This document shows positions 26,163 through 28,352 of a stretch of DNA of 34,290 nt, in pieces. The notes under the pieces are model-generated. The model made no database searches. It saw only the letters and a list, made by a program, of their open reading frames with translations, and was not told where the DNA came from. A program made the position numbers and the translations under genes. Origin of the DNA: Thermoplasmata archaeon (GTDB lineage Archaea > Thermoplasmatota > E2 > DHVEG-1 > B18-G2); NCBI GenBank assembly GCA_021161865.1, contig JAGGZU010000121.1, positions 1 through 34,290 of the forward strand, in the 5' to 3' direction. How positions within the stretch are numbered: position 1 is the first letter of the stretch; each line of letters opens with the position of its first letter.

Positions 26163-26786
26163 ATGGGCGTATACGATTACAAAACATTGCTTAAACGTGT
26201 TCATGAAAACCCTTCTATAAGAACCAAGGAAGTTGAGGAAAGGTTCACGGTTCCGATTGCTGATGTTTTTTATGAGGGGAGAACAACCATAATACGTAAC
26301 TTTGAAAGACTCTCTTCTGATTTAAACAGGGAGCCGGAGCATATACTCAAGTTTCTTCTTGGCGAACTTGGTACAGCTGGTGAAAAGGACGGTCCAAGGG
26401 CTGTTTTTCAGGGGAAGATATCTGCTCAGCAGATACAAAACAAGATTCAGGAGTACGTTGAAACCTATGTTTTATGTCAGGAGTGTGGCAGACCTGACAC
26501 GCATATTGTGAAAAAGGATAGAATGGTGTTTCTGCGTTGCGATGCATGCGGTGCGTTTAGAAGCATAAGTACTAGAAAAAAGAGAGTTGTTCAGAAAACT
26601 GAGGAGAGGATTGAGCAGGGTAAGGTTTATGAGGTTACGATAAGCGACATAGGTAGGAAGGGTGATGGTCTCGCTCATCTTGGGAAGTATACCATATATA
26701 TACCCTCTGCTGTGAAGGGTTCTACCGTTAAGGTTAAGATAGAAAAGGTGTCTGGTACGGTTGCATTCGGGAGAATAGTTTCTTAG
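26163..26786 (+). CDS. eif2b: Translation initiation factor aIF2 subunit beta with C-terminal TRAM domain
   Basis: eIF2-beta/eIF5 core (YDYKTLLKRVHENPS...LLGELGTAG, zinc finger CQECGRPDTHIVKKDRMVFLRCDACGA) followed by TRAM-like VYEVTISDIGRKGDGLAHLGKYTIYIPSAVKGSTVKVKIEKVSGTVAFGRIV. Confidence 0.95.
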   Translation: MGVYDYKTLLKRVHENPSIRTKEVEERFTVPIADVFYEGRTTIIRNFERLSSDLNREPEHILKFLLGELGTAGEKDGPRAVFQGKISAQQIQNKIQEYVETYVLCQECGRPDTHIVKKDRMVFLRCDACGAFRSISTRKKRVVQKTEERIEQGKVYEVTISDIGRKGDGLAHLGKYTIYIPSAVKGSTVKVKIEKVSGTVAFGRIVS

Positions 26787-26820
26787 CTAAGTTTGTGCTG
26801 TGAAACCACAAATCGAAAGA

Positions 26821-26828
26821 TATTTAAA
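26821..26828 (+). promoter_or_regulatory. TATA box-like element (with purine-rich BRE-like CGAAAGA) for the cdrS-like gene
   Basis: CGAAAGATATTTAAACT; expected TSS near 26850. Confidence 0.55.
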
Positions 26829-26850
26829 CTAAAATACCTATTCAAGTCTG

Positions 26851-26925
26851 CATTTGTCAGACAAATGATGTCGTCTGTCATTGGCTGTATGTCAATGCGA
26901 CTCTTTGATGACATCGGTCTGACAA
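26851..26925. promoter_or_regulatory. Nested inverted repeat, candidate operator or 5'-UTR structure upstream of the cdrS-like gene
   Basis: CATTTGTC-A-GACAAATG palindrome at 26851-26867. Nested arms TTGTCAGAC/GTCTGACAA (26854-26862/26917-26925), GATGTC/GACATC (26867-26872/26910-26915), CATTG/CAATG (26879-26883/26893-26897). Confidence 0.75.
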
Positions 26926-26944
26926 CTGTGTGAGGAGAAAAGAT

Positions 26945-27172
26945 ATGGAAACAGGCCGTTTAACAGTCCGCCTTCCCCTGCACGATCTTCGAGCCATCGA
27001 CCTTTTTATTAGAGTAGGGGAGTTTACCACCCGCTCTGAGGTGATAAGACACGCTGTAAACGAGTTCATAAAAAGATACTCGGACGAGGTGGTCGAAAAG
27101 GCAGAGAAGATTAAAAAAGTGCAGGAACTCGAGGCCACTGTTTCCGTACTCGAATCCTACGCTAAAAAGTAG
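26945..27172 (+). CDS. cdrS: CopG/ribbon-helix-helix transcriptional regulator, CdrS-like (ftsZ-linked)
   Basis: METGRLTVRLPLHDLRAIDLFIRVGEFTTRSEVIRHAVNEFIKRY is a classic RHH pattern. ATG 26945 preceded by GTGAGGAGAAAAG. Directly upstream of ftsZ. Confidence 0.85.
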   Translation: METGRLTVRLPLHDLRAIDLFIRVGEFTTRSEVIRHAVNEFIKRYSDEVVEKAEKIKKVQELEATVSVLESYAKK

Positions 27173-27206
27173 AATAACTGGATAGGAGGGAATGGGATGC
27201 CCTTCC

Positions 27207-27228
27207 GAAGGGTGCTTCGGCACCCTTC
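27207..27228 (+). promoter_or_regulatory. Strong RNA hairpin GAAGGGTGC-TTCG-GCACCCTTC between cdrS-like gene and ftsZ
   Basis: Perfect 9-bp stem capped by C(UUCG)G tetraloop, read directly from the sequence. Confidence 0.85.
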
Positions 27229-27251
27229 ACAACTACCAGGAGGAAAAAGGG

Positions 27252-28352
27252 ATGCAAGAAGGAGGAATGAGCCAAACCTTAATTGCTAATGCAATAGAAA
27301 ATAAGAAGCAGGAGGAAATGAAACTTAAGAATAACGAGGATCTCTTCGGAGAACCTCAAATCGTCATCGTTGGTTGTGGTGGGGCAGGAGGGAACACCAT
27401 AACCCGTCTACATAAACTTGGTGTAAAAGGTGCAAGAACCATAGCGATAAACACAGACAAACAAGCGCTTGATCTGGTAGATGCTGACGAAAAACTTCTC
27501 ATAGGTGGAAACGTAACAAGGGGACTTGGAGCCGGAGGTTTCCCAGAGGTTGCCGAACGATGCGCCAGAGAATCAAGCAGGGAGATAGAAGAGGTGTTAA
27601 AGGGTGCGGACATGGTTTTCATCACCGCGGGTATGGGTGGTGGAACCGGAACAGGAGCTGCCCCTGTTGTTGCTGAGATAGCAAAGAAACAGAACGCTGT
27701 TGTAACATCAATGGTTTCAACACCATTCAACGTAGAACGTGCACGGCTGGTAAAAGCGGATGAAGGATTGGATAAACTCAGGAAAAAAGCGGATAGTGTC
27801 GTTGTTTTAGACAACAACAGGTTACTTGAGTTTGTACCTAACCTACCAATAAACCAGGCCTTCTCAGTGATGGATCAACTCATAGCTGAGACCGTAAAGG
27901 GGATAGCTGAAACCATAACGTTACCGTCTCTCATAAACCTCGATTACGCAGATATGAAAACCATAATGAACTCGGGTGGACTCTCTGTGATGCTATGGGG
28001 AGAAGCAGATATAGATGAAGGGGTAGAGAAGGTAGTGAAAGAGGCGTTGAATCATCCTCTGCTCAACGTTGACTACCGTGGTGCAACAGGTGCGCTTGTT
28101 CACATAACAGGTGGTCCAAATATGACACTAAAATACGTTCAGGATGTCTCCCAGGAGCTCACTAAAGACCTTGACAGCTACGCCAACGTTATACTTGGTG
28201 CACGTGTTATACCAGAGTTTGAAAACAAATGCAGGGTAATGGCGATAATGACGGGTGTACAATCACCGAACCTTCTTGGACCAAACACTTCATCTCAACT
28301 GCTAAACAAAACCCTTACCAACCCAAAACTAAACATAGATTTCGTTAGATAA
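27252..28352 (+). CDS. ftsZ: Cell division protein FtsZ
   Basis: [36 protein letters not shown]. Start at 27252 preferred over track 27192 because CCAGGAGGAAAAAGGG precedes it and the 20 extra residues would be encoded by the hairpin. Confidence 0.95.

Follow-up and report, generated by a model that had tools for sequence, protein, structure and literature searches.

A conserved palindromic site and an 11-bp array form a probable autoregulatory operator upstream of a cdrS-like gene and ftsZ in Thermoplasmatota

We analyzed a stretch of 34,290 nucleotides of archaeal DNA (contig C78 of a 1.44-Mb assembly), the whole of which is called the window here. On it, the gene for aIF2-beta is followed by a gene for a 75-aa ribbon-helix-helix (RHH) protein and then by ftsZ. 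The features of the RHH-ftsZ unit are as follows.

26814 to 26828, + strand: BRE/TATA-like core promoter of the cdrS-like-ftsZ unit, CGAAAGATATTTAAA, exact match
26851 to 26867, no strand: core palindrome CATTTGTC-A-GACAAATG, with GTC at 26856 and GAC at 26860
26867 to 26879, no strand: left block GATGTC..TGTC, with GTC half-sites at 26870 and 26877
26888 to 26931, + strand: 11-bp array, with units starting at 26888, 26899, 26910 and 26921
26912 to 26928, no strand: second, degenerate palindrome copy, CATCGGTCTGACAACTG (GTC, 26917; GAC, 26921)
26931 to 26938, + strand: Shine-Dalgarno sequence TGAGGAGA of the RHH gene
26945 to 27172, + strand: cdrS-like gene encoding the 75-aa RHH protein (Pfam RHH_1), the presumed ligand
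27180 to 27239, + strand: conserved intercistronic RNA element, separate from the putative operator and complementary to a free-standing small RNA (sRNA)
27252 to 28352, + strand: ftsZ (Pfam Tubulin and FtsZ_C; NCBIfam ftsZ, 381 bits)

The 75-aa protein matches Pfam RHH_1 with 25.7 bits (cut-off, 20.5), and its predicted structure is a two-helix, RHH-like model (pLDDT 90) for which RHH antitoxins and NikR were the top PDB hits, none of them reaching an E value of ≤0.001. It consists of a single RHH domain plus one long helix, with no ParR-type extra domain. Residues T7 and R9 of the RHH beta-strand do not vary, but they are also present in RHH paralogs whose genes lack the site described below; thus, T7 and R9 alone do not explain specificity. 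In haloarchaea, CdrS is an RHH regulator encoded beside ftsZ2 (PMC7439475, PMC8406309). The protein in the window resembles haloarchaeal CdrS in being a small RHH protein encoded directly before ftsZ and in having a weak but real match to the CdrS profile (NCBIfam CdrSHalo, NF058555; 31.3 bits); unlike haloarchaeal CdrS, it scores below the equivalog cut-off of 100 of this haloarchaeal model. The RHH gene directly precedes ftsZ not only in the window but also in almost all relatives of the order and class with complete loci. The ATG at 27252, which follows the Shine-Dalgarno sequence AGGAGG, is probably the ftsZ start; the longest FtsZ open reading frame opens at 27192, inside the conserved RNA element and in frame with this ATG.

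Transcription of the unit is predicted to start near 26850. An earlier note on this DNA had placed a TATA-like box upstream of this point and a perfect odd palindrome at it, and both are present, the box as an exact match at 26814 to 26828 and the palindrome at 26851 to 26867. The GTC half-sites of the left block sit 14 and 21 nt past the first GTC (26856). Three pairs make up a larger dyad: TTGTCAGAC at 26854 to 26862 with GTCTGACAA at 26917 to 26925 (axis, 26889.5), GATGTC at 26867 to 26872 with GACATC at 26910 to 26915 (axis, 26891), and CATTG at 26879 to 26883 with CAATG at 26893 to 26897 (axis, 26888). The earlier note had put all axes near 26888 to 26891, which is right for these pairs but not for the odd palindrome, whose own axis is 26859. 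The outer arms, 26851 to 26867 and 26912 to 26928, are complementary at 14 of 17 positions, and the second of them, the degenerate palindrome copy, overlaps units 3 and 4 of the 11-bp array. Closer to the gene, GTGAGGAG before the ATG is conserved in most genomes of the order.

Judged on rarity alone, the palindrome and the dyad stand out only mildly: a second perfect palindrome with 8-bp arms and a 1-nt spacer (26419 to 26435) and five further arm pairs with 14 of 17 complementary positions lie in the 34-kb window. Across the whole assembly, the exact palindrome is confined to this locus; the next-best matches carry three mismatches and are no more numerous than in the control. As symmetry of such quality is no great rarity in the window, the argument depends on comparison, and we regard the palindrome as functional because it is conserved in relatives, not because it is rare.

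Regions upstream of RHH genes were gathered at three levels, order, class and phylum (Thermoplasmatota); relatives found to have the RHH protein include the Thermoplasmata/Thermoplasmatota MAGs SG8-52-3 and SM1-50. The earlier note had proposed aligning the upstream regions of relatives as a check, and this alignment finds the palindrome core conserved: all 83 of 83 RHH leaders across Thermoplasmatota have GTCNGAC at the predicted transcription start, 55 of them as the exact TTGTCNGACAA, and a TATA-like box lies 20 to 39 nt ahead of it in most relatives (mostly 34 to 36 nt in the order). The chance expectation of GTCNGAC at a near-fixed distance from the TATA box is about 0.05 per leader. The 83 leaders exclude RHH paralogs without ftsZ (L048 to L051) and three loci that were truncated at a contig end or had an ambiguous start (L052, L054 and L103); two of the 83 (L089 and L119) have an additional, earlier GTCNGAC match. 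Between genera, the 31-nt left/core block has a mean pairwise identity of 79%, and in most genomes of the order GTC recurs at 0, 14 and 21 nt from the first GTC of the core, sometimes also at 28. In other families, a second GTCNGAC stands in tandem 10 or 11 bp away (L045, L106, L108, L110 and L122). For the RHH matches in Methanosuratincola (L083 to L085), a comparable leader was not found.

The earlier note overlooked that GAC recurs with an 11-bp period at 26899, 26910 and 26921. The units of this array read TATGTCAATGC (at 26888; degenerate), GACTCTTTGAT (26899), GACATCGGTCT (26910) and GACAACTGTGT (26921). Counted from the first GTC of the core, leaders of the order have GAC at 4 and then at 32, 43, 54, 65, 76 and 87, and 23 genera within the order have the exact 11-bp lattice. 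When each genus contributes a single genome, 38 of the 59 GAC pairs downstream of the core are separated by a multiple of 11 versus 5.4 expected (binomial p = 2e-25, relatedness ignored), and none of the other periods tried, 5 to 16, shows enrichment among the GAC pairs. Dinucleotide shuffles produced at most 7 matches versus 36 of 51 observed, and the upstream regions of the same genomes, used as a control, gave no 11-bp signal; these comparisons rule out chance or a genome-wide periodicity as the source of the lattice. The lattice-averaged unit, GACRTMNAWNT, carries 4.3 bits versus at most 1.1 with randomised phase. The array comprises three to six units and is confined to the order; its sequence has diverged to 41% pairwise identity, well below that of the core block, while the lattice has been retained. 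Spacing by one helical turn points to proteins lying side by side on DNA.

We also asked to which gene the site belongs. Where the RHH gene is found apart from ftsZ (L111 to L121 and others), the RHH leader retains GTCNGAC, and in 13 such unlinked genomes the motif is upstream of none of 41 ftsZ-like matches (overlapping loci, with some genes counted twice). Thus, the signal belongs to the RHH gene, and the unlinked genomes rule out an operator belonging to ftsZ instead. The paralogous RHH genes L048 to L051, which occur in a few genomes of the order, are 38 to 41% identical and have no ftsZ nearby, lack the operator-like site. Elsewhere in 10 genomes, the exact TTGTCNGACAA is at chance level, with 24 matches, of which 9 are this leader, versus 14 in the control. 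A regulon of exact sites is therefore rejected, the remaining matches equaling the reversed control, and the lack of an excess fits a mainly local circuit.

We conclude that the dyad is quite probably a compound DNA operator of the downstream RHH protein, through which the cdrS-ftsZ unit would be autoregulated. Five observations support this reading: phylum-wide conservation, a near-fixed position relative to the promoter, association with the RHH gene, the 11-bp lattice, and the lack of a strand-specific RNA signal. The palindromic and tandem subsites overlap the promoter or predicted start site of the RHH gene, and the site follows the regulator gene rather than its neighbor. The proposal of the earlier note, cooperative binding of the RHH protein to an autoregulatory operator, is thus strengthened by the 83 of 83 leaders, the RHH-gene association and the array. 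Counting against it, some leaders, namely those of f1 and f3 and some of the class, can fold into long perfect hairpins, and an RNA function would explain these as well.

In such an operator, the strong palindromic site TTGTCNGACAA would cover the predicted start site, and the left GTC half-sites together with the 11-bp array would take up the larger part of the leader between it and the Shine-Dalgarno sequence. Occupation by RHH dimers would begin at the palindrome and extend from there dimer by dimer, each covering 11 bp next to its neighbor. This would block the start site, so that the protein would repress its own gene and the co-transcribed ftsZ. The outcome would be a steep, self-limiting control of FtsZ supply. 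We infer the RHH protein as the ligand, one dimer per unit and cooperativity, and likewise repression rather than activation, the position of the start site and the co-transcription of ftsZ. We know of no operator described for the cdrS-ftsZ unit outside haloarchaea. A phylum-wide operator with an exact 11-bp register would give the CdrS-like protein a concrete DNA target and would make it possible to recognise sites of this regulator in archaea that have not been cultured; it also suggests that feedback on cell-division genes is steep and cooperative.

It is common for RHH proteins to repress their own genes, with dimers sitting next to each other on short repeated subsites; MetJ, Arc and CopG are autoregulatory repressors of this kind in bacteria. 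Another is omega (PMC5016525). The arrangement in the window would resemble these four in its short tandem operator subsites, in their binding by neighboring dimers, and in a repressor acting on its own or an adjacent gene; unlike theirs, it has a different subsite sequence and spacing, an archaeal promoter and a cell-division operon. In Sulfolobales, aCcr1 is an RHH repressor of cdvA. Like aCcr1, the present protein is linked to archaeal cell division, but aCcr1 acts in trans, on cdvA and on other genes too. The aCcr1 model has a weak match (22.6 bits; cut-off, 60) in an f7 member of the present RHH family.

A symmetric DNA motif has been reported for Haloferax CdrS. Its 18 reported ChIP sites do not include its own promoter, and most are 41 to 110 nt ahead of a start site, the placement expected of an activator (PMC8406309); in contrast, the present site sits on the RHH gene's own predicted start site and extends into an 11-bp array. 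The cdrS-ftsZ2 promoter of Halobacterium is reportedly bound by CdrL rather than by CdrS (PMC7439475). Thus, the present circuit may be wired differently. The Halobacterium case also gives a precedent for a different protein at this promoter, and the site could be the operator of some regulator other than the RHH protein, such as a global cell-cycle factor; a few of the genomes do have paralogous RHH proteins with similar beta-strands. We find this improbable, as the exact site is not enriched elsewhere in the 10 genomes, the site travels with the RHH gene through changes of neighborhood, and CdrL is reported to be absent outside Halobacteria (PMC7439475).

The other main alternative is a structured 5' UTR, in which a leader hairpin by the Shine-Dalgarno sequence would control RHH translation via a ligand, a protein or temperature. 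The window leader folds at -34.9 kcal/mol (z, -4.1), those of f1 and f3 relatives at z of -5.7 to -9.3, and several class genomes have hairpins of differing stem sequence that end near the start codon. Such folding is not decisive, because a DNA dyad gives the same. Selection for RNA pairing predicts two things: better folding of the sense strand than of the antisense strand, each measured against shuffles, and stem mismatches of the G.U rather than the A.C type. The leaders do not show the first and show no clear sign of the second: sense and antisense leaders scored -2.18 versus -1.80 in the order (p = 0.26) and -3.98 versus -4.53 in the rest of the class, which leans opposite to the RNA expectation, and G.U and A.C mismatches numbered 22 versus 23 in the class and 65 versus 34 in f2, for which a ratio of about 57:43 would follow from base composition alone. 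Among the f1 and f3 leaders, sense folded better in five of six, a set of only six sequences. In addition, a hairpin can form without an 11-nt lattice of direct repeats that places GAC on one strand, and the leader matches no known RNA family in Rfam at an E value of ≤1. The absence of a sense/antisense difference and of a clear G.U excess favors DNA over RNA and leaves an RNA hairpin as the main function without support. The structured 5' UTR, which the earlier note had offered as its alternative, is therefore disfavored and on balance unlikely; an RNA function is a minor possibility, strongest in f1 and f3.

A third comparison is with ParR/parC of plasmid R1, where a minimum of two 11-bp repeats is needed by ParR (PMC9426499), each ParR dimer binds a single iteron, and the par promoter/operon is autorepressed (PMC5016525). 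Here too, an RHH gene and a filament gene are accompanied by tandem direct repeats of about 11 bp at the operon promoter. Unlike in ParR/parC, the filament protein is the chromosomal FtsZ rather than ParM, the C-terminal filament-contacting domain of ParR is missing, the array is degenerate and opens with a palindromic block, and there is no evidence of partition. A parC-like nucleoprotein hub with a role beyond regulation, for example, tethering the locus to FtsZ or marking a chromosomal position, seems to us highly improbable, given an array that is short (three to six units) and order-confined, a protein of 75 aa without the extra domain, and no pointer to DNA segregation. We consider it very doubtful that an RHH-DNA filament is a chromosomal, tubulin-linked counterpart of parC that would serve both as a switch and as a platform sensing or nucleating FtsZ.

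Apart from the putative operator, the unit carries the intercistronic RNA element. Between the RHH stop codon and ftsZ, it consists of GGGATGGGATGC, a sequence-variable stem, and AACTACCAG directly before the ftsZ Shine-Dalgarno sequence. Its sRNA-complementary segments are GGAGGGRATGGGATGC and ACAACTACCAG (27184 to 27200 and 27229 to 27239), the latter beside the ftsZ Shine-Dalgarno sequence. The stem, GAAGGGTGC-TTCG-GCACCCTTC (27199 to 27239), shows compensatory changes in relatives (GAAGGCCGTC/GACGGCCTTC and GAAGGACGCC/GGCGTCCTTC) and would bring the two segments together. GGGATGGGATGC occurs 48 times in 12 genomes versus 0 times for the reversed control, and many free-standing copies sit in ∼70-nt genes on the opposite strand. 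CGAAA lies upstream of 30 of the 34 free-standing copies, and a run of five T's lies downstream of 28. The putative ∼70-nt sRNA gene has its own BRE/TATA and T-run, and the sRNA loop is antisense to both conserved segments of the mRNA (27184 to 27239); the gene was recognised by neither Rfam nor ARAGORN. Of 80 class genomes, 75 contain the sRNA pattern (control, 0), with the proviso that in some f7 genomes one match is the mRNA itself read backwards. In the genome of the window, the core of the sRNA is located as follows.

G000:C23:7533-7564, + strand: sRNA core (L206)

Across 12 class genomes, duplexes of cognate sRNA and mRNA averaged -49.1 kcal/mol versus -45.4 for noncognate ones, a mean that none of 5,000 permutations equaled or undercut. 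Cognate spacers match in G066, G068 and G073, and the sRNAs of 4 of the 12 genomes rank their own mRNA eighth or lower. This looks like a candidate conserved trans-acting sRNA controlling ftsZ translation, and it suggests a second, RNA-based control of ftsZ besides the operator; the operon thus appears to carry two independent control layers. Bacteria are known to have sRNAs with a link to ftsZ or cell division, such as DicF (PMC5069750) and a Klebsiella sRNA (PMC10907235). In most phylum loci where the RHH gene is unlinked to ftsZ (L111 to L121), GGGATGGGATGCAC follows the RHH stop codon, and in G204, G210, G234 and G299 another copy of GGGATGGGATGCAC lies roughly 90 to 130 nt before an FtsZ-family match.
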